Below are positions 28,072 through 46,846 of a stretch of DNA of 64,000 bases, in pieces. Numbering within the stretch: position 1 is the first letter of the stretch; the number at the start of each line of letters is the position of its first letter. A model generated the notes under the pieces. That model was not told the origin of the DNA, did not search any database, and worked only from the letters and a program-made list of their open reading frames with translations. Origin of the DNA: an uncultured Ruminococcus sp. (GTDB taxonomy: Bacteria; Bacillota; Clostridia; Oscillospirales; Acutalibacteraceae); the NCBI GenBank assembly GCA_905233755.1, contig CAJODM010000006.1, positions 31,880 to 95,879 on the forward strand, in the 5' to 3' direction. A program made the position numbers and the translations under genes.

Positions 28072-28090
28072 AGAGAAAACTGAACATACC

Positions 28091-28218
28091 ACTTATCAAG
28101 AGCGACTGAGGGACAGGCCCTGTGACGTCCGGCAACCTGCATGAGGCAAGGTGCTAATTCCTGCGGTATCACCGAGAGATGAGTTATGCGGCTCCGACTG
28201 ATACTGTCGGAGCTTTTT
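28091..28218 (+). promoter_or_regulatory. SAM-I (S-box) riboswitch with terminator
   Basis: Hallmark order: CTTATCAAGAG (P1 and kink-turn start), GACTGAGGGAC, GGCCC, CCGGCAACC, GGTGCTAATTCC, then GAGAGATGAG closing P1 near 28183. The expression platform is the terminator GCTCCGAC (28191-28198) / GTCGGAGC (28206-28213) followed by five Ts. When SAM is bound, transcription should stop before metK. Confidence 0.96.
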
Positions 28219-28249: not shown

Positions 28250-29428
28250 ATGTCCTATCTGTTTACTTCCGAATCCGTTACCGAGGGGCATCCCGACAAG
28301 GTCTGCGACAGGATATCCGATTCGATCCTCGACGCGATCCTGCTGCAGGACAAGAACGCCCATGTCGCGTGCGAGACCACCGCGACCACCGGACATATCC
28401 ATATCATGGGCGAGGTCAGCACCACCGCCGAGGTGGATGTCGAGGCGATCGCCCGCCGCGCGGTATGCGAGATCGGCTATGATTCGCCCGACAAGTTCTT
28501 TGACGGGAACACCTGTGAGGTGAGCGTGCTGCTCGACCGCCAGTCGCCCGATATCGCGATGGGCGTGAACGCGTCCTATGAGCAGAAGTCGGGCGAGAGC
28601 GACTCGGACTCGCTGATCGGTGCGGGCGACCAGGGGATGATGTTCGGCTATGCCTGTGACGAGACCGAGGAGCTGATGCCGCTTTCGATCTCGCTCGCGC
28701 ATCGGCTGGCAATGCGGCTGACCCAGGTGCGCCGCAACGGCACGCTGCCGTATCTGCGCCCAGATGGGAAGACCCAGGTGACCGTCGAGTATGACGGTGA
28801 TCGCGCCTGTCGCATCGACACCGTCGTCCTGTCGACCCAGCACGCCTCTGACGCCGATCTCGATACGATCCGCGCGGATATCATCGACACGGTGATCCGT
28901 CATGTGATCCCTGCTGAGCTGCTCGACAGCGCGACCAAGATCTATGTCAATCCCACCGGACGGTTCGTCATCGGCGGACCCGAGGGTGACGCCGGGCTGA
29001 CCGGCAGGAAGATCATCGTCGATACCTATGGCGGCTATGCCCGCCACGGGGGTGGCGCCTTCTCGGGCAAGGACCCGACCAAGGTGGATCGCTCGGCGGC
29101 ATACTATGCCCGCTATATCGCGAAGAACATCGTTGCCGCCGGGATCGCCCGCCGTGCCGAGGTACAGCTCGCCTATGCCATCGGTGTTGCAAAGCCAGTG
29201 TCGGTGATGGTCGATACCTTTGGAACGTCCGACTACACGAACGAGCAGATCGCCCGCGCGGTGAACAGGGTGTTCGACGCCCGTCCGTCGGCGATCATTA
29301 GGGAGCTGCGGCTCCTTGATACCCGCTATGCGCCGCTGTCGTCCTATGGCCATATGGGCAGGACCGACCTGGGCGTTCGCTGGGAGGACACGGATAAGAC
29401 GGACGCGCTCAGACAAGCGCTGCAATAA
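28250..29428 (+). CDS. metK: S-adenosylmethionine synthetase
   Basis: 392 residues. Makes SAM from methionine and ATP, releasing phosphate and pyrophosphate. Signature residues: GHPDK at 13-17, [12 protein letters not shown] near 125, [16 protein letters not shown] near 265, and a C-terminal ALQ end, all normal. GGGAGAG site 8 bp before ATG. Its leader is the SAM-I riboswitch, so the enzyme is repressed by its product. Confidence 0.98.
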
Positions 29429-31815: not shown

Positions 31816-31843
31816 TTGACAAATCTGAAATCTGTGCTAATAT
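31816..31843 (+). promoter_or_regulatory. Promoter of T-box leader 1
   Basis: TTGACA (31816-31821), 16 bp, TAATAT (31838-31843), directly upstream of stem I. Confidence 0.75.
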
Positions 31844-31849
31844 GTATTA

Positions 31850-32123
31850 GACAAATGAATCTAAAGGCAATGACGAAGACGGTCTTGGTACTTTTCTTTT
31901 CAGAGAGTCGGCGGGTGGTGCGAGCCGACAGAGAACGCCTCTGACCCATCCCTTCCGAGCCGGAGGTCCGAACGGCATCGCTCAGTAGACGCCTCCCGTG
32001 ATTGCTGCGTCAAGGCATAGGGGTTGTTGGACCCTGATGAGCGGCCGTTTTTATACGGCAAGTTGAGTGGTACCGCGGATGTGATTTTCACACTCGTCTC
32101 AATGGTGAGACGGGTGTGTTTTT
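31850..32123 (+). promoter_or_regulatory. T-box riboswitch 1, specifier read as ATC (Ile)
   Basis: Stem I elements: AATGACGAAGA (31870-31879), AGAGAG bulge, apical GGTGGTGCGAG, 3' strand ending CTTCCGAGC. The antiterminator bulge TGGTACCGCGG lies at 32068-32078. The terminator stem CACACTCGTCTCA (32089-32101) / TGAGACGGGTGTG (32106-32118) is followed by TTTTT. GAAG (31875-31878) pairs with CTTC (31952-31955); the triplet before it in the specifier loop is ATC (31948-31950), an Ile codon. The T-box itself is certain; the codon is my manual fold. Confidence 0.95.
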
Positions 32124-32141
32124 GTTTTGCAAGAACCTGCT

Positions 32142-32211
32142 CTGCGCTCACCCCGCTGTTTTGCCGACGCTTCCTCTATCACGATACGGCAGAAGGCGGG
32201 ATCGAGCGCAG
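32142..32211 (+). promoter_or_regulatory. Extended hairpin between T-box 1 terminator and start codon
   Basis: Three nested stems in register: CTGCGCTC (32142-32149) / GAGCGCAG (32204-32211), CCGC (32153-32156) / GCGG (32196-32199), TGCCG (32162-32166) / CGGCA (32187-32191), with a 20-base loop. It lies in the 137-bp gap before ATG 32260 and has no T-tract. There is no equivalent after T-boxes 2 or 3. Confidence 0.5.
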
Positions 32212-32259
32212 CGTCACACGGCTTTATTTGTCAAATATCCTTTATCGGAGGTCATGATG

Positions 32260-34524
32260 ATGACACATGTTGAGAACGAGACCCTGCAGGAGGTCGCCCG
32301 CCGCATCCGAGAGATGCGCGAGATCAGCGCTTTCTCGATTGCCGAGATGGCAGAGAAGACCGAGCTGTCGGTGCGCGAGTATGAGGACTATGAGAACGGA
32401 CGCGAGGATCTGCCGTTCACCTTTGTTCACAAGTGCGCGCTGGCGTTCGGCATCGGGATTACCGACCTGCTCGAGGGCGAGTCGGCACGGCTCAAGTCCT
32501 ATACCGTCACCCGCCGCGGCGGCGGCCGCCAGACCGCCGAGGAGGAGGGCATCTCGATCGTGAACGTCGCCCCGATGTTCAAGAACAAGATCGCCGAGCC
32601 CTACTTCTGCAAGTATGACTATGACGAGCGGCTGCAGAACAAGCCGATCCATTTGACCAAGCACAACGGTCAGGAGTTCGACTTTGTCATCTCCGGAAAG
32701 ATGAAGATTCAGATTGGCAACAACTTCGAGACCCTTGCTGCCGGCGACAGCATCTACTATAACTCGGCCACGCCTCACGGCATGATCGCCGTGGACGGCG
32801 AGGACTGCAAGTTCATTGCTGTGATCCTGCCGGGTGAGAAGGAGGTCGAGGAGCGTGAGGATGAGCTCATGCGCGCCCATATTGCCCACAAGCCCCTCAT
32901 CTCCGAGCAGTTCATCCGCACCATCGAGGACGAGAACGGCTATCTCAAGGCGATCAGCTTCAAGAACGAGGAGAAGTTCAACTTTGCGTTCGACTGTGTG
33001 GACGCTATCGCCAACAACACCCCCGACAAGCTCGCCATGCTCCATATCGACAAGCACAAGGTCGAGCGCCGCTTCACCTTCAACGATATGAAGCGCAAGT
33101 CGAACCAGGCCGCCAACTACTTCAAGTCGCTCGGCATCCAGCCCGGCGACAAGGTGATGCTGGTACTCAAGCGTCACTACGAGTTCTGGTTCGCGATCCT
33201 GGGCCTGCACAAGCTCGGCGCGATCGCGATCCCCGCGACCAACCAGCTGCTCGCTCATGACTTCGAGTACCGCTTCAATGCGGCGGGCGTGTCGGCGATC
33301 GTTGCGACTGCCGACGGCGTTGTCGCCGACGCGGTGGACGAGGCGCAGAAGAGCTGCCCGTCCCTCAAGACCAAGATCCTCGTCGGCGGCAAGCGCGACG
33401 GCTGGAACGACTTTGACAGCGAGTTCGACCTGTACTCTGCCCACTTCTACCGTACGGTCGAGACGCCGTGCGGCGAGGACACGATGATCATGTTCTTCAG
33501 CTCCGGCACCACCGGCTATCCCAAGATCGCCGCCCATAGCTACAAGTACCCGCTCGGTCACTATGTTACCGCCAAGTACTGGCACGGCGTCGATCCCGAC
33601 GGACTGCATTTTACCATCTCCGACACCGGCTGGGGCAAGGCGCTGTGGGGCAAGCTGTACGGCCAGTGGCTCTCCGAGGGCGCGGTGTTCACCTATGACT
33701 TTGACCGGTTCCATGCCGACGATATCCTGCCGATGTTCAAGAAATACAATATCACTACCTTCTGTGCGCCGCCGACGATGCTGCGCATGATGATCAAGGA
33801 GGATATCAGCAAGTATGACCTATCTTCGATCGTGCATATGACGACCGCGGGCGAAGCGCTGAACCCCGAGGTCTCGCGCCAGTTCCGCAAGGCGACGGGG
33901 CTAAGGATCATGGAGGGCTTCGGCCAGACCGAGACCACGCTGTGTATCGGCAACCTCTTCGGAACCGTGCCCAAGCTCGGCTCGATGGGGCTGCCCATCC
34001 CCGGGTATGACCTCGACCTCGTCGACCCCGACGGCAACCCCGTTCCCGACGGCGAACCCGGCGAGATTGTGGTGCGCACCGACAAGCGCATCCCCTGCGG
34101 GCTGTTCAAGGGCTACTACGGCGACGAGGAGGCGACCCGTGCGGCATGGCACGATGGGATGTATCATACCGGCGATACCGCGTGGCGGGACGAGGACGGC
34201 TACCTGTGGTATGTCAGCCGCGTGGATGATGTCATCAAGAGCTCCGGCTATCGTATCGGCCCGTTCGAGATCGAGTCGGTCATCATGGAGCTGCCGTATG
34301 TGCTCGAGTGCGGCGTGTCCGCCGCCCCCGACGAGGTGCGCGGTCAGGTCGTCAAGGCGTCCGTCGTGCTCGTCAAGGGGACAGAGCCCACCGAAGAGCT
34401 CAAGAAAGAGATCCAGAACTATGTCAAGCAGCACACAGCCCCGTATAAATATCCGCGTATCGTCGTCTTTCGCGACAGCTTGCCCAAGACCATCAGCGGC
34501 AAGATCCAGCGCAATAAGTTGTAA
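32260..34524 (+). CDS. XRE-cupin-acyl-CoA ligase fusion 1, probably for 2-methylbutyrate (Ile branch)
   Basis: 754 residues in three parts: an XRE helix-turn-helix (about 5-65; REISAFSIAEMAEKTELSV), a cupin (about 145-225; HNGQEFDFVISGKMKIQIG) and an acyl-CoA synthetase of the AMP-binding family (about 260-754). Visible motifs are FFSSGTTGYPKIAAH (ATP loop), EGFGQTETTL, YHTGDTAWRDEDG, DDVIKSSGYRIGPFE and the catalytic Lys in SGKIQRNKL. It adenylates a carboxylic acid and transfers it to CoA. The branched short-chain substrate is inferred from the Ile T-box and the VOR/IlvE genes downstream. Third of three ATGs chosen (GGAGG 8 bp before it). Confidence 0.85.
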   Translation: MTHVENETLQEVARRIREMREISAFSIAEMAEKTELSVREYEDYENGREDLPFTFVHKCALAFGIGITDLLEGESARLKSYTVTRRGGGRQTAEEEGISIVNVAPMFKNKIAEPYFCKYDYDERLQNKPIHLTKHNGQEFDFVISGKMKIQIGNNFETLAAGDSIYYNSATPHGMIAVDGEDCKFIAVILPGEKEVEEREDELMRAHIAHKPLISEQFIRTIEDENGYLKAISFKNEEKFNFAFDCVDAIANNTPDKLAMLHIDKHKVERRFTFNDMKRKSNQAANYFKSLGIQPGDKVMLVLKRHYEFWFAILGLHKLGAIAIPATNQLLAHDFEYRFNAAGVSAIVATADGVVADAVDEAQKSCPSLKTKILVGGKRDGWNDFDSEFDLYSAHFYRTVETPCGEDTMIMFFSSGTTGYPKIAAHSYKYPLGHYVTAKYWHGVDPDGLHFTISDTGWGKALWGKLYGQWLSEGAVFTYDFDRFHADDILPMFKKYNITTFCAPPTMLRMMIKEDISKYDLSSIVHMTTAGEALNPEVSRQFRKATGLRIMEGFGQTETTLCIGNLFGTVPKLGSMGLPIPGYDLDLVDPDGNPVPDGEPGEIVVRTDKRIPCGLFKGYYGDEEATRAAWHDGMYHTGDTAWRDEDGYLWYVSRVDDVIKSSGYRIGPFEIESVIMELPYVLECGVSAAPDEVRGQVVKASVVLVKGTEPTEELKKEIQNYVKQHTAPYKYPRIVVFRDSLPKTISGKIQRNKL

Positions 34525-34579
34525 AGCTTTTTGACCCCGCGTATATGGCATTTTGTCTAAATTTTCTGCAAAAAATTTA

Positions 34580-34608
34580 TTGACAAATACCAAAGAATGT
34601 GCTACCAT
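34580..34608 (+). promoter_or_regulatory. Promoter of T-box leader 2
   Basis: TTGACA (34580-34585), 17 bp, TACCAT (34603-34608). Confidence 0.75.
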
Positions 34609-34611
34609 ACT

Positions 34612-34900
34612 ATCTGTAAAGGCAACGACGAAGAGGGTACGGTCCCTCGTCTCCCAGAGAGGAAGCGGTTGGTGCGAGCTTCTGTGACGGTCTCCGTATT
34701 TGTAGCTTCCGAGCCGAGGAGAAGAAAGCCGGCTGTCTTGTCCGGTGACTAGACCTCCTCCGTGATGACTGCGTGAAGGTATAGGGATTACAGGATCCTG
34801 AGAGAGGCAGCGATGAGATATCTGGGCTGCAATTTGAGTGGTACCGCGGATGTGATTTTCACACTCGTCTCAAAGATTTACTTTGGGACGGGTGTTTTTT
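34612..34900 (+). promoter_or_regulatory. T-box riboswitch 2, specifier read as GTA (Val)
   Basis: Same architecture as T-box 1: AACGACGAAGA, AGAGAG, GGTTGGTGCGAG, CTTCCGAGC, then TGGTACCGCGG (34839-34849) and a terminator (34861-34875 / 34881-34895) followed by Ts. Helices GAAG/CTTC (34630-34633 / 34706-34709) and TACGG/CCGTA (34638-34642 / 34694-34698) enclose a loop TTT-GTA-G, placing GTA (Val) at 34702-34704. The 3' strand between apical loop and specifier is 19 nt in both T-boxes 1 and 2, which supports the register. Confidence 0.95.
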
Positions 34901-34921
34901 CGTCCCGGAAAGAGGTTTATG

Positions 34922-37207
34922 ATGGATCACATTAACACACTGGACGCGAAGATCAGGGAGATGGCATCGCGTATCCGTGAGCTGCGCGACCTGCTCGGCA
35001 AGACCCCCGAGGAGATGGCGGCTTCGACCGGCGTCACCGTTGACGAGTATCTTCGGTGCGAGTCGGGGGAAGAGGACCTCAACTTTGCCTTCATCTATCG
35101 GTGCGCCAAGGTGCTGTCCGTGAACGTCACCGATATCATCGAGGGCATCAGCCCGAACCTTGCCTCCTATACCGTCACCCGCCGCGGCGGCGGTCAGAAG
35201 GTGTCCCAGGCACACGGCATGACCTACTACAACCTCGCTTATGCGTTCCGCAACCGGATCGCAGAGCCCTTGTATGTCAAGTCCAAGTACAACCCTGCCG
35301 CCCAGGATAAACCCATCGAGCTGACGACTCACGACGGTCAGGAACTCGACCTCGTTGTCGAGGGTGAGCTGATGGTCCAGGTCGGCGAGCACAAAGAGGT
35401 GCTCGGGCCGGGGGATTCTATCTACTTTGACTCCGATACGCCCCACGGCATGATCGCTGTCGGCGGTCGGGACTGTGTGTTCTATGCCATCGTGCTCAAC
35501 CCCACCGGCGAGCCGATCCCCGAGCTGTCTGCCGACGCCCAGATCGCCGATACGAGCGTCATCACCGCCGACAATAAGCCCAGAGTATATCAGAAGTTCG
35601 TCGACTTTGAGGTCAACGAGATGGGCACCCCCACTAACATCACCTTCAAGAACACCGACAAGTTTAATTTCGGCTTCGATGTGATCGACGAGATCTCCTA
35701 CAAGGATCCCGAGAAGCTTGCGATGCTGCATATCTCGCGCGATAAGACCGAGCGTCGGTTCACCTTCACCGATGTGCGCCATCATTCTGCCCAGTGCGCG
35801 AACTACTTCAAGTCGCTGGGCATCAAGAAGGGCGACCGCGTCATGCTGGTGCTCAAGCGTCACTACCAGTTCTGGTTTGCGATCGTCGGGCTGCACAAGC
35901 TCGGCGCTATCGCGATCCCTGCGACCAACCAGCTTCAGGCGCATGATTTCGAATACCGGTTCAAGACCGCCGGCGTCAGCGCGATCCTCTGCACCGCCGA
36001 CGGCGACACCGCCTTCGAGGTCGACAAGGCGTGCAACAGCTTTCCCCAGATCACGAAGATCATCGTCAACGGCGAGCGCGACGGCTGGCGCACCTTTGAT
36101 GAGGAGTACACGCTGTTCTCCTCTCACTTCGAGCGCACCGAGGACTCGCCGCAGGGCGACGATTTGATGCTGATGTACTTTACGTCGGGCACCTCGGGTT
36201 ATCCGAAGATCGCCGCTCACTGTCACAAGCTCGCGCTCGGTCACTTCCAGACCGCCAAGTTCTGGCACAACGTCGATCCCGACGGGCTGCACTTCACCAT
36301 CTCGGACACCGGCTGGGCGAAGGCGGCATGGGGCAAGCTGTACGGCCAGTGGCTGTGCGAGGCGCCGCTGTTCATCTATGACTTTGACCGCTTCGATGCC
36401 GCCGACATACTTCCCATGTTCAAGAAATACAATATTACTACCTTCTGTGCGCCGCCGACGATGCTGCGCATGATGATCAAGCAGGATATCTCGAAGTACG
36501 ATTTCTCGTCCGTCAAGCGGATGACCACCGCGGGCGAGGCGCTGAACCCCGAGGTGTACCGCCAGTTCGAGAAGAGCACCGGACTGCAGATCATGGAGGG
36601 CTTCGGCCAAACCGAGACCGCCGTCATCATCTGCAATATGATCGGCGCTCCCCACAAGATCGGCTCCATGGGCAAGCCGTCGCCCATCTATGACCTGCAC
36701 CTGATCGACAAGGACGGCAACGACGTGCCCGACGGCGAGCCCGGCGAGGTGGTCATCAACATCAGCGAGGGGCTGCCGTGCGGACTTGCGGTATTCTACT
36801 ACAACGACGTCGAGTCCACCCGCAAGACATGGCGCAACGGCTACTACCATACCGGCGACCTTGCGTGGCGCGATGAGGACGGGTTCTTCTATTATGTCGG
36901 TCGTGTGGACGACGTCATCAAGAGCTCCGGCTACCGCATCGGCCCGTTCGAGATCGAGTCGGTCATCATGGAGCTGCCGTATGTGCTCGAGTGCGGCGTG
37001 TCCGCAGCACCCGACGAGGTGCGCGGTCAGGTCGTCAAGGCATCTATCGTTCTCGTACCCGGGACCGAGGGCACCGACGAGCTCAAGAAGGAGATCCAGG
37101 ACTATGTCAAGCAGCATACCGCCCCGTACAAGTACCCGCGTATCGTTGTCTTCCGTGACAGCTTGCCCAAGACCGTCAGCGGCAAGATCCAGCGCAACCT
37201 GCTCTAA
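34922..37207 (+). CDS. XRE-cupin-acyl-CoA ligase fusion 2, probably for isobutyrate (Val branch)
   Basis: 761 residues, a tandem paralogue of the gene before with the same order: XRE helix-turn-helix (RELRDLLGKTPEEMAASTGV), cupin (HDGQELDLVVEGELMVQVG) and AMP-binding ligase (YFTSGTSGYPKIAAH, EGFGQTETAV, YHTGDLAWRDEDG, SGKIQRNLL). Residues around the A8 hinge (DDVIKSSGYRIGPFEIES) are identical in both, and 65 bp of DNA there match exactly. ATG 34922 gives 6 bp to AAAGAGG; ATG 34919 is also possible. The Val T-box suggests isobutyrate, the acid matching valine after carboxylation and transamination. Confidence 0.85.
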   Translation: MDHINTLDAKIREMASRIRELRDLLGKTPEEMAASTGVTVDEYLRCESGEEDLNFAFIYRCAKVLSVNVTDIIEGISPNLASYTVTRRGGGQKVSQAHGMTYYNLAYAFRNRIAEPLYVKSKYNPAAQDKPIELTTHDGQELDLVVEGELMVQVGEHKEVLGPGDSIYFDSDTPHGMIAVGGRDCVFYAIVLNPTGEPIPELSADAQIADTSVITADNKPRVYQKFVDFEVNEMGTPTNITFKNTDKFNFGFDVIDEISYKDPEKLAMLHISRDKTERRFTFTDVRHHSAQCANYFKSLGIKKGDRVMLVLKRHYQFWFAIVGLHKLGAIAIPATNQLQAHDFEYRFKTAGVSAILCTADGDTAFEVDKACNSFPQITKIIVNGERDGWRTFDEEYTLFSSHFERTEDSPQGDDLMLMYFTSGTSGYPKIAAHCHKLALGHFQTAKFWHNVDPDGLHFTISDTGWAKAAWGKLYGQWLCEAPLFIYDFDRFDAADILPMFKKYNITTFCAPPTMLRMMIKQDISKYDFSSVKRMTTAGEALNPEVYRQFEKSTGLQIMEGFGQTETAVIICNMIGAPHKIGSMGKPSPIYDLHLIDKDGNDVPDGEPGEVVINISEGLPCGLAVFYYNDVESTRKTWRNGYYHTGDLAWRDEDGFFYYVGRVDDVIKSSGYRIGPFEIESVIMELPYVLECGVSAAPDEVRGQVVKASIVLVPGTEGTDELKKEIQDYVKQHTAPYKYPRIVVFRDSLPKTVSGKIQRNLL

Positions 37208-37239
37208 CCGATCCGGCTTTCCGCTATAGGAGCAATGTT

Positions 37240-37902
37240 ATGAACTACAAACGACTGACTATCCTCTGCGGCCACTATGGCTCGGGCAAGACGAACATTG
37301 CCGTGAATATGGCATATGCGCTCGCCTCCCAACGTGATCACGTAGCGGTCGCCGACCTCGACATCGTGAACCCGTACTTTCGCACCAAGGACTCGCAGGA
37401 GGACTTTGACGAGCGGGGGATCCGGCTGATCGTGTCTGAGTTTGCCTCGTCGAACGTCGATCTGCCGTCGATGCCCGCCGATCTGTACGCGATCACCGAC
37501 GACCGGTCGCTGTCCGTCATCATGGATATCGGCGGCGACGACCGCGGCGCGCTCGCGCTCGGGCGGCTGCGTGATGCGATCCTCGATGAGGATGACTATG
37601 AGATGTATATGGTTGTGAACCGCTACCGCCCGCTGACCCCCGACGCCGACACGACGATCGAGGTGATGCGCGAGATCGAACGCGCGTGCGGCATCCCGTT
37701 CACCGGTATCATCAACAACTCGAACCTCGGTGACGAGACGGACGCCGAAACGGTGCTGTCCTCTGTCGCGTATGCCGATCAAGTGGCGGAGAAGGCCTCT
37801 CTGCCGCTCGTTCTCACCACCGTCAGAGAGGACCTCTATGATTCTTTGAAAGAAAAATTAAGCCCATTGTTATGTCTGCATTTACAGGCAAAACCGATAT
37901 AA
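37240..37902 (+). CDS. ParA/MinD-like P-loop ATPase next to the 2-oxoacid oxidoreductase
   Basis: 220 residues of the SIMIBI NTPase class. Walker A ILCGHYGSGKTNIAVNMA, switch region VADLDIVNPYFRTKDSQ, and VIMDIGGDDRGALALGRL in the Walker B place. Proteins of this kind occur beside 2-oxoacid:ferredoxin oxidoreductases in anaerobes and are often labelled cobyrinate synthase- or CooC-like; a role in cofactor or Fe-S delivery to the complex is plausible but unproven. 25 bp before the ferredoxin subunit gene. AGGAG site 9 bp before ATG. Confidence 0.75.
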   Translation: MNYKRLTILCGHYGSGKTNIAVNMAYALASQRDHVAVADLDIVNPYFRTKDSQEDFDERGIRLIVSEFASSNVDLPSMPADLYAITDDRSLSVIMDIGGDDRGALALGRLRDAILDEDDYEMYMVVNRYRPLTPDADTTIEVMREIERACGIPFTGIINNSNLGDETDAETVLSSVAYADQVAEKASLPLVLTTVREDLYDSLKEKLSPLLCLHLQAKPI

Positions 37903-37927
37903 CGAATACTGTAGAAGGGAAATGAAT

Positions 37928-38134
37928 ATGGCTAAACTTACGTTCAAAACCGACAACTGCAAGGGTTGCTCGCTGTGCGTGGATGCCTGTCCCAAGGGGA
38001 TCCTGAGGATAGCGACCGACAAAATCAACAAGAAGGGTCATCACCCCGCCGAGTGTTTCGACGAGGACAAATGCATCGGTTGTGCGTCGTGCGCGATGAT
38101 GTGCCCCGACTGTATCATCAAGGTAGAAAGGTAG
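37928..38134 (+). CDS. 2-oxoacid:ferredoxin oxidoreductase, delta (2[4Fe-4S] ferredoxin) subunit
   Basis: 68 residues with two 4-Fe clusters: CKGCSLCVDACP and CIGCASCAMMCP. It shuttles electrons between the TPP centre of the complex and cell ferredoxin. ATG 37928 is chosen (GAAGGGA 7 bp upstream) over ATG 37922. It begins the four-gene set delta, alpha, beta, gamma, the usual order for clostridial VOR-type enzymes. Confidence 0.92.
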   Translation: MAKLTFKTDNCKGCSLCVDACPKGILRIATDKINKKGHHPAECFDEDKCIGCASCAMMCPDCIIKVER

Positions 38135-38141
38135 TGAGGAT

Positions 38142-39202
38142 ATGGCTGACAAGATTTTGATGAAGGGCAACGAGGCGATCGCCGAGGCGGCTATCGTTGC
38201 CGGATGCCGTCACTATTTCGGCTATCCGATCACCCCTCAGACCGAGATCGCCGCCTACATGGCCAAGAAGATGCCCAAGATCGGCGGCGTGTTCCTGCAG
38301 GCAGAGTCCGAGATCGCCGCGATCAACATGGTTTACGGCGTCGCCTCTGCCGGCAAGCGCGTGATGACCTCCTCCTCGTCGCCCGGCGTATCGCTCAAGG
38401 GCGAAGGGCTGTCATATCTGGCGGGGTCCGACCTGCCGTCCCTCATCGTGAACGTCCAGCGCGGCGGCCCGGGGCTCGGCGGCATCCAGCCGTCCCAGTC
38501 CGACTACTTCCAGTCCACTCGCGGCGGCGGTCACGGCGACTATCACATGATCGTCCTTGCCCCCGCATCGGTACAGGAGATGGCGGAGCTGACCGTCAAG
38601 GGATTTGAGCTTGCCGATACCTATCGCATGACCTCGATGATCCTTGCCGACGGCACGATGGGCCAGATGATGGAGCCGGTCTCACTCGATATCGAGGTCA
38701 AGCCCATGATCGACAAGCCGTGGGCGACCACCGGTACCAAGATGGCGCGCAAGCATAACATCGTTAACTCCCTTTCGCTCGTGCCCGAGGAGCTCGAACA
38801 GCTCAACTTCGCCCGCTATGAGCGCTATCGTACTATCGAAGAGAACGAGACCATGTTCGAAGAGTATCTGGTCGAGGATGCCGATATCGTCCTTGCGGCG
38901 TTCGGTATCGCGGCGCGTGTCTCAAAGAACGCCGTCGACGAAGCCCGCAAGCGGGGCATCAAGGCGGGGCTCATCCGCCCGATCACCCTCTGGCCGTTCC
39001 CGAAGGCACCGTTCATGGCGGCTGCCGAACACGCCAAGGCGTTCCTCTCGGTCGAGCTGAACATGGGTCAGATGATCGAGGACGTCCAGCTTGCGACCGG
39101 GTGCAAGGCGCCCGTCTATCTGTGCAACCGCGCGGGCGGCATGATCCCCGATCCCAAGCAGGTGCTGCAGTCTATTATCAATATCAACGGAGGTGAAAAC
39201 TG

Positions 39203-39203
<1 letters not shown>
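38142..39203 (+). CDS. vorB: 3-methyl-2-oxobutanoate:ferredoxin oxidoreductase, alpha subunit
   Basis: 353 residues. N-terminal pyrimidine domain: GNEAIAEAAIVAGCRHYFGY, PITPQTEIAAYMAKKMP, LQAESEIAAINMVYGVASAG, then SSSPGVSLKGEGLSYLAG; C-terminal transketolase-like domain LVEDADIVLAAFGIAAR and LRPIT-like LIRPITLWPFP. It matches the VorB type rather than the pyruvate enzyme. Cleaves branched 2-oxoacids to acyl-CoA, CO2 and reduced ferredoxin, and can run in reverse. One-base overlap with the next gene. Confidence 0.93.
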
Positions 39204-39960
<757 letters not shown>

Positions 39961-39961
<1 letters not shown>

Positions 39962-40500
39962 TGAGCACGAAGAATATGCTTTTTTCCGGCTTCGGCGGTC
40001 AGGGTATCCTCTTCGCCGGCAAGTTCATCGCCTATAAGGGGCTGATCGAGGATCAGCAGGTATCGTGGCTGCCGTCCTACGGGCCCGAGATGCGCGGCGG
40101 CACCGCGTCGTGCTCGGTCATCGTGTCCGATACCCCTGTCGGCTCGCCGATCGTGTCGAATCCCGATATCCTCGTCGCTATGAACCTGCCGTCCCTCGAC
40201 CGGTTCGAGGACGCGGTCGTCCCCGGCGGGATGATCATCGCCGACTCTACCCTTATCGAGCGCAAGGTAGCACGCGATGATGTTCGGGTGTTCTATATCC
40301 CCGCGACACGCCTTGCATCCGACAACAAGCTCGGCAACCTTGCCAACATGATCATCGTCGGCAAGCTCCTCAAGGAGATCGGCGAGTATTCTGAGCAGGG
40401 GCTGTCCGCCGCTCTCGATAAGGTCATCTCGGCGAAGCATGCCGACATGAAGGATGTCAACCTTGCCGCTATCCGGTTGGGTGCTGCCTACAGCGAATAA
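39961..40500 (+). CDS. 2-oxoacid:ferredoxin oxidoreductase, gamma subunit
   Basis: 179 residues. FSGFGGQGILFAGKFIAYKG is the gamma-domain signature; WLPSYGPEMRGGTASCSVIVS and NPDILVAMNLPSLDRF follow as usual. Completes the delta-alpha-beta-gamma enzyme. ilvE follows after 15 bp, tying oxoacid chemistry to transamination. Confidence 0.95.
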
Positions 40501-40515
40501 GAAGGAGAGAGAACC

Positions 40516-41577
40516 ATGGAGATCAAGTTTGTAGAGAACAATCATTTGAAAGAGAAGCCCGCTGCCTCTGCGCTCGGGTTCGGCAAGTACTTCACCGACT
40601 ATATGTTCCGATGGACATACAGCAGGGAAGAGGGCTGGCATAATGCCCGGATCGTTCCGTTCGAGAACCTCTCGATCCATCCCGCCTCGACCGTGCTGCA
40701 CTACGGTTCCGAGATCTTCGAGGGGCTCAAGGCATACCGCCGTGCCGACGGCAAGGTACAGCTCTTTCGCCCCATCGAGAACATCCGACGTATGAACCGC
40801 TCGGCAGAGCGTCTGTGCCTGCCCGAGCTGCCCGAGGACGAGACGCTGGAGGCGCTGCTCAAGTTCGTCAAGCTTGAACAGGATTGGACGCCGTCCGATA
40901 AGGGTACATCCCTCTACCTGCGTCCGTTCATGTTCGGCAACGACGAGTCGCTGGGCGTGCACGCAGTGCATAACGCCGAGTTCATCATCATCGCGTCACC
41001 TGTCGGCTCGTACTATGCCCAGGGCATCAATCCGGTCGGCATTATGATCGAGGACGAGGATGTCCGTGCGGTACGCGGCGGCACCGGCTATGCCAAGTGC
41101 GGCGGCAACTATGCTGCGTCCAACCGTGCCGGCGAGCGCGCCGAGCAGCAGGGCTATGCCCAGGTGCTGTGGCTTGACGGCGTCACCCGCCGCTATATCG
41201 AAGAGGTCGGCGCGATGAACGTCATGTTCAAGATCTCCGGCAAGGTCGTCACCCCGATGCTCTCGGGTTCGATCCTCCCGGGTATCACCCGTATGTCCTG
41301 CCTTGAGCTGCTCCGGTCCGAGGGGTATGACGTCGAGGAGCGGCTGCTCTCGATCGACGAGCTGGAAGAGGCAATGGAGAACGGTACTCTGGAAGAGGCG
41401 TGGGGCTGTGGCACTGCTGCAGTGATCTCGCCCATCGGCGAGCTGTGCTACAAGGGCAAGAAGTACACCGTCAACAACGGCGAGATCGGCGAGCTGTCAC
41501 AGCACCTCTACGATACCCTGACGGGTATCCAGTGGGGCGAGCGAGAGGACACCTTCGGCTGGATCACCGAGATTTGA
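40516..41577 (+). CDS. ilvE: Branched-chain amino acid aminotransferase
   Basis: 353 residues, fold type IV PLP enzyme. PLP Lys194 in GTGYAKCGGNYAAS; substrate-site blocks YGSEIFEGLKAYRRADGKV and LRPFMFGNDESLGV; EEVGAMNVMF (Glu for the alpha-carboxylate side) and SGSILPGITR. Interconverts Val, Ile and Leu with their 2-oxoacids. Placed directly after the VOR genes, it supplies the last step of the proposed fatty-acid-to-amino-acid route. GAAGGAGAG 7 bp before ATG. Confidence 0.96.
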   Translation: MEIKFVENNHLKEKPAASALGFGKYFTDYMFRWTYSREEGWHNARIVPFENLSIHPASTVLHYGSEIFEGLKAYRRADGKVQLFRPIENIRRMNRSAERLCLPELPEDETLEALLKFVKLEQDWTPSDKGTSLYLRPFMFGNDESLGVHAVHNAEFIIIASPVGSYYAQGINPVGIMIEDEDVRAVRGGTGYAKCGGNYAASNRAGERAEQQGYAQVLWLDGVTRRYIEEVGAMNVMFKISGKVVTPMLSGSILPGITRMSCLELLRSEGYDVEERLLSIDELEEAMENGTLEEAWGCGTAAVISPIGELCYKGKKYTVNNGEIGELSQHLYDTLTGIQWGEREDTFGWITEI

Positions 41578-41593
41578 TATCGGTTGAGTTATC

Positions 41594-41626
41594 AAAGCGG
41601 CAGGAGCTTCCTGCCGCTTTTTGTTT
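41594..41626 (+). terminator. Terminator after ilvE
   Basis: 12-bp stem AAAGCGGCAGGA (41594-41605) / TCCTGCCGCTTT (41609-41620), loop GCT, then TTGTTT. Confidence 0.92.
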
Positions 41627-41784
41627 GCTATATGCAGCAGGTTCGGATAATCCATACCGGGATAGGCACAGTGTTTCGCTGTTATATCCTTGCATCTATG
41701 TTGTGAAAATAACCGGAAACCGTTATATTTCTGGCTCGTGCGATGCGCATAATTGCAAAATCGAAATTTTCGTTCGTGAATCTG

Positions 41785-41813
41785 TTGACAATTCGATTTT
41801 GTTGTGCTATAGT
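41785..41813 (+). promoter_or_regulatory. Promoter of T-box leader 3
   Basis: TTGACA (41785-41790), 17 bp, TATAGT (41808-41813). The 150 bp between the ilvE terminator and this promoter show nothing else I can name. Confidence 0.85.
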
Positions 41814-41821
41814 ACTGTACA

Positions 41822-42077
41822 GCTAAATGCGTTGATGAAATTATTCACGGCATCACGCCATGTCAGAGAGCCGCCGGTTGGTGAGAGGCGGTATGGAAGT
41901 GCCGCTGAAGTCTCATTTCGGAGCAGAGTCGCCGAACTTTCAGTAAGCGGCTACGGAGTGTCCCGTTATCATGGCAGAGGACTTGTCAGAGTCCGACGAG
42001 TGACCGTACATCAGTACGGTAAGCAGGGTGGTACCGCGATGAATGTCGTCCCTGAGGCAATGCCTCGGGGATTTTTT
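41822..42077 (+). promoter_or_regulatory. T-box riboswitch 3, specifier read as CTC (Leu)
   Basis: GTTGATGAAA and CAGAGAG, apical GGTTGGTGAGAG, GTAAGCGGCTACGG and CCCGTTATC (stem II region), antiterminator TGGTACCGCG (42029-42038), terminator TCCCTGAGGC (42049-42058) / GCCTCGGGGA (42062-42071) and TTTTTT. GAAA (41837-41840) pairs with TTTC (41916-41919) and CGGCA (41848-41852) with TGCCG (41900-41904). In the register used for T-boxes 1 and 2 the specifier is CTC (41912-41914), Leu. Confidence 0.95.
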
Positions 42078-42135
42078 GTTGTCCCGCCCGCCTGTCGCTC
42101 CCGCATAATATATGGATGAAAAGAGGAGTTATTTC

Positions 42136-43509
42136 ATGAAGCAGATCCACATCGCAGACACGACCCTACTCGGTATCGGCAACGCCCTTTCCTTTAAGGA
42201 GAAGCTCGACATCGCCCGCAAGCTCGATCGACTGTCGGTCGACGCCATCGAGCTGCCCGAGATCACCGGCGCGAAGGCCGATACTCTGCTGGTGCGAACG
42301 ATCGCCTCGTTCGTGACGAACAGCGTGATCTCGGTCGGCGCGACCTCGTCGCTGTCGTCGATCAACTATGCCGCCGAGGCGCTCAGCTCTGCCGAGCACG
42401 GCCGCATCCGCATCGAGCTGCCGATGTCGGCGGCGATCATGGAGTACTCCCTGCACAAGAAGCAGGACAAGATGTGCGCCTATATCACCGAGATGGTCTC
42501 TGCCGCAAAGGCAAAGTGTGACGACGTCGAGTTCTGTGCCGTTGATGCGACACGTGCCGAACGGGCGTTTCTTGCAGATGCGCTTACCGCTGCCGTCACA
42601 GCCGGTGCGACCTCCGTGGTGCTGTGTGACAGCGCGAGTCTCTATATGCCCGATGACTTTGCCGCCTTTGTCGAACGGATGACCGCGGATATCGGCGTTC
42701 CGGTCGGCGTGATGGTCAACAACAAGAACGCTACCGCCGTTGCCGCTGCTGCGCTATGCGTCAAGGACGGCGTGTCCATCGTCAAGACCGGCGTCAAGGG
42801 TGAGGCGACCCCGCTGCGCGACTTTGCGGCGATGATCGACGCCTATCGCGAGAACTATGCTATCGAGACCGGTGTTCGCGTGACCGAGCTGCACCGTGCC
42901 GTCGACCAGATCGAGTGGGTCATCGGCGGCAAGAACGCCGAGGTGCCGCGCCCGACCGAGGTCATCGATGACGGGATCAAGCTGTCGGTGAACGATACCA
43001 AGGAGACCGTCGCCGATACCGTCGCGTCCCTCGGGTATGATCTGTCGGACGAGGACGGCGACAAGGTGTACAGCGAGTTTCGCCGCATCGCCAGAAGAAA
43101 GCAGGTCAGCTTGCAGGAGCTCGACGTGATCGTTGCCTCGACCGCTCTGCAGGTCCCCGCGACCTATACGATCGAGAGCTATGTCATCAACTCGGGCAAC
43201 ATCATCACCGCCTCGGCACAGATCAACCTCCTGAAGGACGGTAAGTCGATCGGCGGCGTATCGGTCGGCGACGGGCCGATCGACGCCTCGTTCCATGCAC
43301 TCGACGAGATCATCGGCCGCCATTTCGAGCTTGACGACTTCTCGATCCAGACCGTCACTCGTGAGAAGGACGCGATGGGCAGTGCGCTGGTGCGCCTGCG
43401 CTCGGGCGGCAAGATCTATTCCGGCACCGGGCTGTCGACCGATATCATCGGCGCATCGATCCGCGCCTATGTGAACGCTGTCAACAAGATCGTCTATGAG
43501 GAGGGCTAA
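42136..43509 (+). CDS. LeuA-like (2-isopropylmalate synthase family) protein without catalytic metal ligands
   Basis: 457 residues: HMGL-like TIM barrel, linker, and an intact LeuA-type regulatory domain (GDGPIDASFHALDEIIG, later STDIIGASIRAYVNAVNKI). In true enzymes DTTLRDGEQ provides Arg and a metal Asp; here it reads DTTLLGIGNAL. The HxHND metal site reads MVNNK (193-197). All three canonical metal ligands appear lost, so normal acetyl-CoA condensation is unlikely. It may be a leucine-binding regulator or partner of the next protein. ATG 42136 has AGAGGAG 7 bp upstream; an in-frame ATG at 42112 has none. Confidence 0.8.
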   Translation: MKQIHIADTTLLGIGNALSFKEKLDIARKLDRLSVDAIELPEITGAKADTLLVRTIASFVTNSVISVGATSSLSSINYAAEALSSAEHGRIRIELPMSAAIMEYSLHKKQDKMCAYITEMVSAAKAKCDDVEFCAVDATRAERAFLADALTAAVTAGATSVVLCDSASLYMPDDFAAFVERMTADIGVPVGVMVNNKNATAVAAAALCVKDGVSIVKTGVKGEATPLRDFAAMIDAYRENYAIETGVRVTELHRAVDQIEWVIGGKNAEVPRPTEVIDDGIKLSVNDTKETVADTVASLGYDLSDEDGDKVYSEFRRIARRKQVSLQELDVIVASTALQVPATYTIESYVINSGNIITASAQINLLKDGKSIGGVSVGDGPIDASFHALDEIIGRHFELDDFSIQTVTREKDAMGSALVRLRSGGKIYSGTGLSTDIIGASIRAYVNAVNKIVYEEG

Positions 43510-43511
43510 GC

Positions 43512-46037
43512 GTGAAGTTTTCATTCTCTACCAAGGGTTGGCACGATAATTCTTTTGAAGAATTTTGTGATATCGCTCAATACCTGAAGTTTGACGGGAT
43601 CGAGCCGCATAACATCAACGGCTCGCTCTTTACCGACCGCGACGGCGCGTTCCATGAGTACACCGCCGCCAGTACCCTGCGTCAGCTTCGCGACCGTGAG
43701 CTGTGCCTTCCCTGTATTGACGTCATTCCGAATATTGCTGATAAAGAATTATATGAAATTTCTATAGAAGAAATAAAGAGTTGCCTCTCCATCGCCTCCA
43801 ACCTGCGCATCCCCAACATCCGCCTGCATGCCAAGCGGAGCGATGATGTCCCCGCCGCTGTCGACAACGTCAGGACCGTCATCGCCGAGGTGCTCCCGCT
43901 CGCTGAGCGCGAGCATATCTCGCTGCTGCTCGAGACACGCGGGCTGTTTGCCGATACAAAGCTGCTGCGCGATACGCTCGAGCACTTTGCCAGCGACTAT
44001 GTCGCGGCTCTGTGGAATATGTCCGCCGCGTACTTTACTGTCGGCGAGAGCGCGGCGCAGGTGATCTCGAACCTCGGTGCATATGTCCGCCATGTCCATC
44101 TCAACGATGCTGTCCGTACCGCTTCTTCTCTCGAGTACCGCATCATCGGCGACGGTGATCTTCCTGTTGCCGAGATGATGAAGGCGCTGCGCTCGGTCAA
44201 CTATGATGGGTTTATCTCGCTGGTATGGACGCCCGACTGGATGCCCGAGCTCGATGATATGGAGATCATCTTCTCCCAGTTTATCAGCTATATGCGGTCC
44301 TTTGCCGATACCTCGAAGAACGAGTCCTCGCTGTACTACAGCAACCGTCACGTCGGGCGCTATGTCTGGAAGAAGGAGACGCTGATCGAGGCGACCTTCT
44401 CCGATGTGCTCGACCGCATGGTAGAGGAGTTCCCCGACCAGCTCGCGTTCAAGTACACCACCCTCGACTACACCCGCACCTACTCCGAGTTCCGCGACGA
44501 CGTGGACGAGTTTGCACGCGCGCTCGTATCGCTGGGCGTCAAGGCGGGTACCCATGTCGCCGTATGGGCGTCGAACGTGCCCCAGTGGTACATCGCGTTC
44601 TGGGCGACCGTCAAGCTCGGCGCGGTGCTCGTCACCGTCAACACCGCCTACAAGATCCATGAGGCAGAGTATCTGTTGAAGCAGAGCGATACCCACACCC
44701 TTGTCATCACCTACGGCGACAAGTTCACCTCCTACGGTCAGATTGTATCCGAGCTGTGTCCCGAGCTTGCCGATACTCTCCCCGGTGAACAGCTCCACGC
44801 AAAGCGCCTGCCGTTTCTGCGCAACGTCATCACCGTCGGCTTTGAGCAGAAGGGCTGTCTGACATGGGAGAAGGCGCTTGCCTATGCCTCCCAGACCCCG
44901 CGCTCGACGGTGCTGCGTATGGCAGCCCGGGTGGATAAGGACGACGTGTGCAATATGCAGTACACCTCCGGCACCACGGGCTTTCCCAAGGGCGTGATGC
45001 TCACCCACTACAACATCGTCAATAACGGCAAGAACATCGGCGATCGGATGGATCTGTCCACCGAGGATCGCATGATGATCCAGGTGCCGATGTTCCACTG
45101 CTTCGGCATGGTGCTGGCGATGACCGCCTCGATGACCCACGGCGTGACGATCCTGCCGCTGCCGTATTTCTCTCCCAAACCCGCGCTTGCCTGTATCAAC
45201 AACGAGCACATCACCGCGTTCCACGGTGTGCCGACGATGTTCATCGCGATGCTGGAGCATCCGGATTTTCCGCGCACCGACTTCTCCTATATGCGCACCG
45301 GGATCATGGCGGGTTCGCCCTGTCCCGTATCGGCGATGCAGGACGTCGTCAACAAGATGCACATGACCGAGATCACCATCGTCTACGGGCAGACCGAGGC
45401 GTCGCCCGGATGCACTATGAGCTCTACCGACGACCCGCTCGAGGTGCGCGTCAACACTGTCGGACGCGAGCTGCCCGAGATCGAGTGCAAGATCGTCGAT
45501 CCCGATACCGGCGAGGAGTGCCCGCCCAACGTCACCGGCGAGTTCCTCGCGCGTGGCTATAATATCATGAAGGGCTACTACAAGATGCCCGAAGAGACCG
45601 CCAAGGCGATCGACGCCGACGGATGGCTGCATACCGGCGACCTCGCCTGCAAGACCGAGGAGGGGAACTACAAGATCACCGGCCGGCTGAAGGACATGAT
45701 TATCCGCGGCGGTGAGAACATCTATCCCAAGGAGATTGAGGAGTTCATCTATACCAACCCCAAGGTGTCGGATGTCCAGGTCATCGGCGTCCCCGACGAG
45801 AACTACGGCGAAGAGATCATGGCGTGTGTCATCCTCAAGGAGGGCGAGACCATGACCGAGCAGGAGATGAAGGAGTTCATCTCCGCCTCGATGGCGCGCC
45901 ATAAGGTGCCGCGGTATATCGACTTTGTCGACAGGTTCCCGATGAACGCCGCCGGCAAGATCCTCAAGTACAAGATGCGCGAGGACGCGGTAGAGAAGCT
46001 CGGCCTGCAGAAGGCGGATAGCGTGGTGACTGCCTGA
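43512..46037 (+). CDS. TIM-barrel (sugar isomerase-like)-acyl-CoA ligase fusion
   Basis: 841 residues. About 1-265: xylose-isomerase/AP-endonuclease-2-type TIM barrel (STKGWHDNSFEEFCDIAQYL, LLLETRGLF, HVHLNDAV). Several metal positions are changed, e.g. ALWNMSAAYF where W-D-x-x-H is usual and SLVWTPD where a final Glu is usual. About 290-835: FadD-type AMP-forming ligase with YTSGTTGFPKGVMLTHYN, VYGQTEASPG, WLHTGDLACKTEEG, GRLKDMIIRGGENIYP and the catalytic Lys in AAGKILKYKMR. Given the Leu T-box, isovalerate is a natural substrate guess. GTG start 2 bp after the LeuA-like stop. Confidence 0.82.
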   Translation: MKFSFSTKGWHDNSFEEFCDIAQYLKFDGIEPHNINGSLFTDRDGAFHEYTAASTLRQLRDRELCLPCIDVIPNIADKELYEISIEEIKSCLSIASNLRIPNIRLHAKRSDDVPAAVDNVRTVIAEVLPLAEREHISLLLETRGLFADTKLLRDTLEHFASDYVAALWNMSAAYFTVGESAAQVISNLGAYVRHVHLNDAVRTASSLEYRIIGDGDLPVAEMMKALRSVNYDGFISLVWTPDWMPELDDMEIIFSQFISYMRSFADTSKNESSLYYSNRHVGRYVWKKETLIEATFSDVLDRMVEEFPDQLAFKYTTLDYTRTYSEFRDDVDEFARALVSLGVKAGTHVAVWASNVPQWYIAFWATVKLGAVLVTVNTAYKIHEAEYLLKQSDTHTLVITYGDKFTSYGQIVSELCPELADTLPGEQLHAKRLPFLRNVITVGFEQKGCLTWEKALAYASQTPRSTVLRMAARVDKDDVCNMQYTSGTTGFPKGVMLTHYNIVNNGKNIGDRMDLSTEDRMMIQVPMFHCFGMVLAMTASMTHGVTILPLPYFSPKPALACINNEHITAFHGVPTMFIAMLEHPDFPRTDFSYMRTGIMAGSPCPVSAMQDVVNKMHMTEITIVYGQTEASPGCTMSSTDDPLEVRVNTVGRELPEIECKIVDPDTGEECPPNVTGEFLARGYNIMKGYYKMPEETAKAIDADGWLHTGDLACKTEEGNYKITGRLKDMIIRGGENIYPKEIEEFIYTNPKVSDVQVIGVPDENYGEEIMACVILKEGETMTEQEMKEFISASMARHKVPRYIDFVDRFPMNAAGKILKYKMREDAVEKLGLQKADSVVTA

Positions 46038-46846
46038 TGGTCAACGGTTTGTATGTTATCGACTCTCACTGCCATATCTATCCCGAGAAGATCGCCTCCA
46101 AGGCGGTCGCCGGCACCGATACCTTCTATGGTACAACTGCCGCGTGTCTGGGCACGGTCAGCGACCTGATCGACGTGAACCGCCAAGCGGGCATCGACCA
46201 CGCGATCGTCCAGTCGGTCGCGACGACTCCCAAGCAGGTGCGCTCGATCAACAGCTTCATCGCCGAGTCTGTCCGCTCGTCGAACGGCCGGCTGACGGGG
46301 CTGGGGACACTGCACCCGGACAGCGACGACCTGCGCGCCGATGTAGAGCATCTCATCTCACTCGGGCTGATCGGCATCAAGCTCCACCCCGATATCCAGC
46401 AGTTCAAGATCGACGACTATCGATGTCTGAAGATCTATGAGCTGTGCGAGGAGTTTGACCTTCCGCTGCTCATGCATACCGGCGACAGCCGCTATGATAA
46501 CTCGAACCCCAACCGCCTCGTGCCGGTGCTCTCGATCTATACGAACCTGCGGCTGATCGGTGCGCATTTCGGCGGCTGGTCGATATGGGAAGAGGCGAGC
46601 CGCAAGCTCTGTGATATCCCGAACCTGTATGTCGATTGCTCGTCCTCGATGCCGTGGCTCGACGACGATACGACGGTCGAGATCATCCGCCGCTACGGCG
46701 CCGATCGAGTGCTGTTTGGCACCGACTTTCCGATGTGGTCGCCGGTCGATGAGATGGAGCATTTTCTGGCGCTCCCGCTCACCGACGATGAGAGGCGCGT
46801 GATCTTCTCCGAGAACGCGAAGAAGGCATACGGCCTGACCCTCTGA
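46037..46846 (+). CDS. Amidohydrolase-2 family (metal-dependent TIM-barrel) hydrolase
   Basis: 269 residues. Metal motif IDSHCHIYPEKIA at the N-terminus (HxH), LIGIKLHPDIQQFKI, LPLLMHTGD, RLIGAHFGGWSIWEEA and VLFGTDFPMWSPVDE (the final Asp ligand), so the active site looks complete, unlike the two TIM barrels before it. The family includes hydrolases and non-oxidative decarboxylases; the substrate here is unknown. Its ATG overlaps the ligase stop by one base, so it belongs to the Leu T-box operon. Confidence 0.82.
   Translation: MVNGLYVIDSHCHIYPEKIASKAVAGTDTFYGTTAACLGTVSDLIDVNRQAGIDHAIVQSVATTPKQVRSINSFIAESVRSSNGRLTGLGTLHPDSDDLRADVEHLISLGLIGIKLHPDIQQFKIDDYRCLKIYELCEEFDLPLLMHTGDSRYDNSNPNRLVPVLSIYTNLRLIGAHFGGWSIWEEASRKLCDIPNLYVDCSSSMPWLDDDTTVEIIRRYGADRVLFGTDFPMWSPVDEMEHFLALPLTDDERRVIFSENAKKAYGLTL

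Follow-up and report, generated by a model that had tools for sequence, protein, structure and literature searches.

Organization of the locus

The stretch of DNA analyzed here (the window, 64,000 nucleotides) covers positions 31,880 to 95,879 of contig CAJODM010000006.1 (assembly GCA_905233755.1) of an uncultured Ruminococcus sp., likely a bacterium from an animal gut. Region 31816–46846 of the window consists of three consecutive transcription units on the plus strand, each with its own promoter-like site, T-box leader and terminator-like hairpin at the start (Table 1), and each of which encodes an AMP-forming acyl-coenzyme A (CoA) ligase (P0001, P0002 and P0004, in which PF00501 and PF13193 both score over the Pfam cut-off). 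Unit 1 is a single gene for a ligase with N-terminal XRE helix-turn-helix and cupin domains. Unit 2 starts with a paralog of this gene, followed by genes for a P-loop protein, the four subunits of a 2-oxoacid:ferredoxin oxidoreductase (VOR) in the order VorD, VorB, VorA and VorC, and the branched-chain aminotransferase IlvE. Unit 3 encodes a LeuA-like protein, a fusion of a TIM barrel with a FadD-like ligase (hereinafter TIM-ligase) and an amidohydrolase. An initial reading of the locus, made from the sequence alone, had placed each T-box directly before a ligase gene; this is correct for the Ile and Val leaders but not for the CTC leader, behind which the LeuA-like gene comes first and the ligase second. 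The complete oxidoreductase and the IlvE that it described between the leaders are indeed present, VorD being recognized from its sequence, and the P-loop protein between the Val ligase and VorD is an addition to that account.

Table 1. Features of region 31816–46846 (window coordinates).
Feature	Position	Strand	Support
Promoter-like site, unit 1	31816..31843	+	10/12, TG ahead of second hexamer
T-box leader, Ile specifier ATC 31948-31950	31861..32104	+	RF00230 76.3 bits, E 1e-15; kept in relatives
Terminator-like hairpin, leader 1	32089..32118	+	
P0001, Ile-class XRE-cupin acyl-CoA ligase (predicted 2-methylbutyrate--CoA ligase)	32257..34524	+	
Promoter-like site, unit 2	34580..34608	+	
T-box leader, Val specifier GTA 34702-34704	34616..34875	+	RF00230 66.9 bits, E 2.6e-13
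Terminator-like hairpin, leader 2	34861..34895	+	
P0002, Val-class XRE-cupin acyl-CoA ligase (predicted isobutyrate--CoA ligase)	34919..37207	+	
P-loop ATPase (CbiA/ParA-like)	37240..37902	+	beside VorD in relatives too
VorD, ferredoxin-like subunit, two 4Fe-4S motifs	37928..38134	+	read from sequence
VorB	38142..39203	+	NF005507 535.9 bits, above curated cut-off 399
VorA, VOR thiamine pyrophosphate (TPP)-binding subunit	39203..39961	+	Pfam
VorC, VOR gamma subunit	39961..40500	+	Pfam
IlvE branched-chain aminotransferase	40516..41577	+	TIGR01123 409.7 bits, above curated cut-off 250.05
Terminator-like hairpin 3' of IlvE, closes unit 2	41594..41620	+	
Promoter-like site, unit 3	41785..41813	+	11/12
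T-box leader, Leu specifier CTC 41912-41914	41823..42056	+	RF00230 120.2 bits
Terminator-like hairpin, leader 3	42048..42072	+	
P0003, LeuA-like protein without catalytic motifs, LeuA_dimer regulatory domain present	42136..43509	+	
P0004, TIM barrel (AP_endonuc_2) + FadD-like ligase fusion (predicted isovalerate--CoA ligase)	43512..46037	+	
P0005, amidohydrolase-2 family protein	46037..46846	+	

T-box leaders and specifiers in the locus and its relatives

In the T-box leaders, the AGAGA motif, the specifier, the TGGTACCGCG antiterminator and the terminator are present in this order, and leader 3 exceeds the gathering score of the RF00230 covariance model (93 bits). The specifiers previously read as ATC, GTA and CTC are recovered as AUC, GUA and CUC at the same positions by covariance-model alignments. 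Of the promoter-like sites in the region, the top three, which start at 31816, 34580 and 41785, all flank T-box leaders, and so do three of the four top-scoring terminator-like sites (the leader hairpins of Table 1); the region as a whole contains 9 promoter-like sites vs 6.7 expected from shuffles, and 13 terminator-like sites vs 8.7 expected. Because they are conserved in relatives, the leaders, together with these sites, are unlikely to have arisen by chance.

These relatives are the best 80 loci from a search of genome contigs with an alignment of 14 ligases, so that the set is limited to the nearest relatives. Their records bear names such as Ruminococcus, Clostridia, Oscillospiraceae and Ruminococcaceae, and many titles mention a ruminant gut site. 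Another 40 stretches came from genomes of the same family, of which five duplicate other loci and were left out of the leader counts, in which the window is included. Motif searches yielded 82 Ile-class leaders (76 with ATC read by script, five with ATC read by eye, and the truncated leader of L011, left unread), 95 Val-class leaders (89 GTA by script, two GTA by eye and four GTC) and, with duplicates removed, 37 leaders before LeuA-like genes (34 CTC and three CTG). The leaders read by eye, on which the regular expression failed, are those of L012, L097, L099, L101, L102, L121 and L122; one CTC leader reaches a contig end, and one match in L128 does not represent a T-box.

A tree was built from 175 distinct ligase sequences by a quick method with SH-aLRT (approximate likelihood ratio test) support only; in it, one branch with support 100 splits the ATC rows from the GTA/GTC rows. 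The Ile clade has ATC in 80/80 readable leaders (one more is truncated), the Val clade has GTA or GTC in 94/94 (91 and 3, respectively), and the Val label requires one change on the tree vs a shuffled mean of 58. The closest call is L105, which scores 929 vs 927 bits for the two classes, has an ATC leader and is placed in the Ile clade, beside L104, in a long-branch join marked by the tree program as possibly spurious. Given that synonymous specifier changes occur (GTA/GTC and CTC/CTG), it is the amino acid rather than the codon that is conserved. The assignment of the specifiers to branched-chain codons, one of the points at which the sequence-only reading could have been refuted, is thus upheld across the relatives, synonymous changes included.

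The genome that contains the window has eight T-boxes at E values up to 1. The five other than the locus leaders precede pheS, thrS, alaS, a trpB-like gene and, one open reading frame (ORF) further down, cysS; none of the eight precedes ileS, valS or leuS. The TrpB-like gene (L005; TIGR01415, 586 bits) may serve indole salvage. The gene for tRNA-Val with anticodon TAC, cognate to the GTA specifier, is located at 25908–25983 in a five-tRNA cluster, 8.6 kb upstream of the Val leader.

Two classes of XRE-cupin ligases

The paralogs P0001 and P0002 share 64% identity, and for both the best NCBIfam model is MbcS (NF047394), the 525 positions of which cover the ligase part only. On sequence grounds, we suggest that the two proteins work like MbcS, without classing them as MbcS. 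For the Staphylococcus aureus enzyme, PMC10026030 gives Km values below 10 uM for 2-methylbutyrate and isobutyrate, the acids predicted here for the Ile and Val ligases, and above 500 uM for isovalerate. This poor affinity for isovalerate fits the Leu ligase belonging to another family. The closest solved structure of P0002 is that of MacsMa from Methanosarcina acetivorans (3etc, 604 bits), which aligns to the ligase part only, prefers 2-methylbutyrate and depends critically on Trp259 for substrate binding, according to PMC10455477.

Comparison of the two classes revealed 39 diagnostic columns, which map mostly to the XRE-cupin part. Two of them are found 4 and 1 positions ahead of the conserved Trp that aligns with the acyl-pocket Trp259 of MacsMa, a correspondence established from the 3etc–P0002 alignment and the numbering in section 3 of PMC10455477. 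At the first (position 467 of P0002), the Gly of MacsMa is retained in 79/80 Ile-class rows, whereas Ala is present in 94/94 Val-class rows; at the second (position 470), Leu in 78/80 Ile-class rows faces Met (63) or Ala (27) in the 94 Val-class rows. Judging from these substitutions, the Val-class pocket might be smaller, which would suit isobutyrate. We also considered gene conversion between P0001 and P0002, given that their last 100 residues are 93% identical, but do not claim it: the within-genome median over 64 pairs, 91.5%, is barely above that across genomes, 89%.

With respect to the spread of the family, 36 of the 147 genomes in a class-wide sample match P0002 at E 1e-230 or better. 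In a plasmid collection, the single relative covering more than 80% of the query is from Parabacteroides distasonis (NZ_OY725757.1, 223406–225613; 43% identity over 99% of P0002). It is annotated as AMP-binding plus cupin, so that the fusion likely exists outside Clostridia.

Linkage of the ligases to the VOR-IlvE core

Gene runs were listed with six duplicate loci left out, although L144 still duplicates L100. The gene immediately behind the Val ligase is the P-loop gene heading the VOR block in 73 runs and IlvE in 5, and the Ile ligase is followed by the same P-loop gene in 9 runs at 8 distinct places. The TIM-ligase is followed by IlvE in 3 runs, in two of which the P-loop and VOR genes come after, and in L148 and L149 it shares an operon with IlvE and VOR genes. 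For every ligase class, there is at least one genome in which it precedes VOR or IlvE genes. Moreover, wherever a run includes VorD (the window, L144, L145, L148 and L149 among them), the gene directly ahead of VorD is the P-loop gene, whichever ligase comes before, and the CbiA/ParA-like P-loop protein may be an accessory or maturation factor of VOR.

Apparent absence of the standard pathway

The genome itself (1.67 Mb in 41 contigs, 99.78% complete) shows no match in profile searches for ketol-acid reductoisomerase (KARI; KARI_C) or dihydroxyacid dehydratase (DHAD; ILVD_EDD_N). For acetolactate synthase (TPP_enzyme_N), nothing scores over the cut-off, and the single match below it is IorA. 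Each of the three profiles matched in 14/14 control genomes. By the families searched, therefore, the standard branched-chain route is missing. The sole aconitase-family match is aconitate hydratase, and among HMGL-like genes nothing matched except the LeuA-like gene and OadA.

The profile was extended to 120 genomes of the family that are at least 90% complete, among which KARI is present in 74 and DHAD-family genes in 76. Val-class genomes were defined by a ligase bit score of at least 1189, a limit chosen after viewing the list; a GTA leader was read in 21 of these 22 genomes, G091 not having been fetched. KARI is missing in 19/22 Val-class genomes vs 27/98 others, and 17 of the 19 show no DHAD-family match either. 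In G004 and G050, the DHAD-family match is only at 356–364 bits, where most second copies in other genomes also score. The LeuA-like protein occurs in 28 genomes, namely, 21 of the 22 Val-class genomes and 7 others, all 28 of which possess an XRE-cupin ligase.

The leucine unit

The LeuA-like protein P0003 contains a LeuA_dimer domain (100.9 bits), and its best NCBIfam match, at 251.5 bits, is under the cut-off of 532. We aligned 121 members of its family with Escherichia coli LeuA. The catalytic Arg of RDGEQ is found in 0/121, and GEQ is gapped in all. The metal-binding HxH lacks its first His in 121/121 and its second in 120/121, so that a complete motif occurs in none; the Asn of the RAGN loop is missing throughout. 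By contrast, the Gly and Asp of NGPVDA and the Asp of GLATDI in the regulatory domain are retained in 121/121. The catalytic, metal-binding and regulatory roles of these motifs are those that we take LeuA to have. A Foldseek search with a structure model of P0003 (pLDDT 65) matched isopropylmalate and methylthioalkylmalate synthases, with leucine-bound LeuA in the first ten; this model and that of P0004 (pLDDT 62) are too weak for locating pockets. Thus, P0003 shares with 2-isopropylmalate synthase the fold, as judged by the sequence and a low-confidence model, and the LeuA_dimer domain, and differs from it in the lost motifs. A working isopropylmalate synthase is rejected given the loss of the catalytic motifs, and a separate 3-isopropylmalate dehydratase was not found in the genome. 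We propose that this protein is a leucine-binding or leucine-sensing regulatory pseudoenzyme of the Leu arm.

Leu T-boxes are present in 12 of the 20 regions around LeuA-like genes (11 CTC and one CTG). Among 20 TIM-ligase regions from genomes without a LeuA-like match, a Leu T-box lies directly upstream of the ligase in five (four CTC and one CTG), all of them among the 15 regions in which the ligase is fused. Two further arrangements deserve mention. In L084, from an uncultured Lachnospiraceae bacterium, the LeuA-like protein, the TIM-ligase, the Ile ligase and the Val ligase are encoded in one run, in which the scan found no T-box motif. In the one-contig genome G007 and in L154, KARI is present, no DHAD-family match was found, and a CTG T-box directly precedes the TIM-ligase; here, the standard pathway appears to be partly missing beside a Leu arm.

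Proposed route and alternative explanations

We propose that the three tRNA-gated units supply isoleucine, valine and leucine from 2-methylbutyrate, isobutyrate and isovalerate, respectively, via reductive carboxylation. Uncharged tRNA-Ile, tRNA-Val or tRNA-Leu would allow transcription to proceed past the terminator and thus raise the level of the matching ligase, which would form the branched acyl-CoA at the expense of ATP, converted to AMP. VOR would then combine the acyl-CoA with CO2, using reduced ferredoxin, to yield the 2-oxoacid, and IlvE would aminate the latter to the amino acid. The branched short-chain acids are likely supplied by neighboring microbes. Given that the VOR-IlvE core resides in the Val unit, the core is predicted to be raised by a lack of valine, and only the respective ligase unit by a lack of isoleucine or leucine. 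Synthesis from branched acids, which the sequence-only reading had put forward, is supported as an inference by the specifiers, the lack of KARI and DHAD matches and of an acetolactate synthase over the cut-off, the likeness of the ligases and their linkage to VOR and IlvE, and we regard the scheme as a whole as probable, with good confidence. This confidence is strongest for isoleucine and valine, for which we consider biosynthesis highly probable, and less firm for leucine, for which it is still likely. The Leu arm is the weakest because its ligase belongs to a different family and two further genes of the operon have no assigned role.

Several observations weigh against this proposal. Leaders 1 and 2 are below the RF00230 gathering score. 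Against the MbcS model, P0001 and P0002 score 421.7 and 416.3 bits, half of the equivalog cut-off of 850, and the Leu ligase P0004 is below the cut-off of its best NCBIfam model. KARI is carried by three Val-class genomes, and the contrast with its presence in 71/98 other genomes (Fisher p 4.5e-7) comes from tests that count related genomes as independent. KARI is also present in 14/23 other genomes with XRE-cupin ligases and in 13/15 genomes with the TIM-ligase fusion but no LeuA-like match. Hence, absence of the standard route is not a condition for carrying the ligases, and in the KARI-bearing genomes a single branched acid may serve as a by-pass. No T-box motif was detected before the LeuA-like gene in 8/20 loci (one of which starts near a contig end) or before the TIM-ligase in 15/20 LeuA-like-free regions (five of them unfused, and two more near a contig end). 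Furthermore, the proposed route gives no part to the XRE-cupin domains, the TIM barrel, the amidohydrolase or the P-loop protein.

Among the alternatives, the one that retains some weight, even if we judge it unlikely, is that the Leu unit makes or senses leucine by other chemistry, for example, a reaction involving the LeuA-like protein, the TIM barrel and the amidohydrolase, rather than by isovalerate activation. Isovalerate activation leaves the three non-ligase parts without a role; the TIM barrel has conserved polar residues, and the amidohydrolase retains an HxH motif, as read by eye. However, all 121 members of the LeuA-like family are devoid of the catalytic Arg, GEQ and a complete HxH, and elsewhere the fused ligase is found behind Leu T-boxes without a LeuA-like gene and, in L148 and L149, with IlvE and VOR genes.

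Much less credible is a catabolic, Stickland-like function, in which branched-chain amino acids would be oxidized to acyl-CoAs by IlvE and VOR, with the ligases running in reverse or scavenging leaked acids. IlvE and VOR are reversible and act catabolically in other anaerobes, and T-boxes alone are no proof of biosynthesis. Nevertheless, induction by uncharged tRNA would turn a catabolic route on during starvation, and the ligases of the locus are AMP-forming, a type poorly suited to ATP gain, whereas catabolism normally proceeds via ADP-forming or kinase routes. The amino acid-matched leader of each ligase class and, in the own genome, the lack of KARI and DHAD matches and of any acetolactate synthase over the cut-off also speak against it. 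We infer the anabolic direction from the combination of uncharged-tRNA control and AMP-forming ligases, a line of reasoning that we consider sound.

Equally improbable, in our assessment, is a role in lipid synthesis, in which the ligases would supply branched acyl-CoA primers for membrane fatty acids. This is the part played by MbcS in S. aureus, which feeds FabH according to PMC10026030, and branched acyl-CoAs could serve both purposes; against it stand the presence of one T-box per amino acid, the co-operonic VOR and IlvE, and the flanking ORFs, of which 0/9 scanned matched a fatty acid synthesis family (three had no match at all). Finally, the possibility that the ligases act on aryl acids (phenylacetate or indoleacetate) for aromatic amino acids, a chemistry represented in the reference list of PMC7356843 by work on rumen anaerobes that form phenylalanine from phenylacetic acid, is hardly tenable and is rejected given the Ile, Val and Leu specifiers, the nearest relatives of the ligases and a separate IorA beside a PaaK-like ligase in the genome.

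This IorA (L090; 705.8 bits, cut-off 650.9) and the adjoining PaaK-like ligase, itself below its cut-off, are located at ~99.3–102.5 kb of contig C6, ~3.4 kb past the right end of the window, and behind none of the eight T-boxes found. The pair appears to be an aryl-acid counterpart of the same logic.

Relation to known systems and implications

The carboxylation route to leucine, isoleucine and valine in the rumen was the subject of Allison 1962 and 1966, Robinson and Allison 1969, and Allison and Peel 1971, as cited in PMC7356843. It involves the same predicted substrates and products, and branched-chain volatile acids are named as growth factors of ruminococci in the title of Allison 1962. 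These works are biochemical by title, whereas the genes, the ligase for each amino acid and the T-box control are proposed here. Methanogens, according to a review (PMC10658910), use 2-methylbutyrate for isoleucine and isovalerate for leucine. The T-box-controlled branched-chain amino acid genes surveyed in PMC2494555 share the leader architecture and specifier logic with our locus; acyl-CoA, ferredoxin and fatty acid do not appear in the main text of that survey, whereas the genes controlled here are acid-activating ligases. A search of the open-access literature by title and the start of the abstract, subscription papers being mostly outside its scope, found no T-box control of branched-acid CoA ligases and no genes of the ruminococcal route among the matches listed, in agreement with the earlier statement that the combination is not a known regulon. 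Thus, the chemistry and the RNA class are known, and the gene set and the control logic were not found in print in that literature. The LeuA-like protein that has lost the catalytic motifs and kept the regulatory domain, and the Ile/Val ligase differences beside the acyl-pocket Trp, as they appear from sequence comparison, are likewise new.

As a tentative synthesis, to which we attach clearly less confidence than to the route itself, gut Clostridia might have swapped the standard pathway for three tRNA-gated routes from community-supplied acids. LeuA would have been kept as a leucine-sensing pseudoenzyme gating the isovalerate ligase, and the XRE-cupin part of the other two ligases would provide a second, acid- or CoA-sensing control.

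The locus provides candidate genes for the branched-acid requirement of ruminococci, and paired Ile and Val ligases together with the absence of KARI could be a genome marker for this requirement. This has a practical side, given that yaks and cattle receive mixed isoacids in their feed, as reported in PMC10311502. Furthermore, the three ligases with predicted distinct substrates offer a natural case of T-box specifiers serving as annotation of enzyme specificity. The proposal predicts cross-feeding of a kind readable in the DNA, and it draws attention to a possible leucine-regulatory pseudoenzyme.

Elsewhere in the window, a SAM riboswitch (28090–28185) precedes the gene for S-adenosylmethionine synthetase (28250–29428), an ordinary arrangement.

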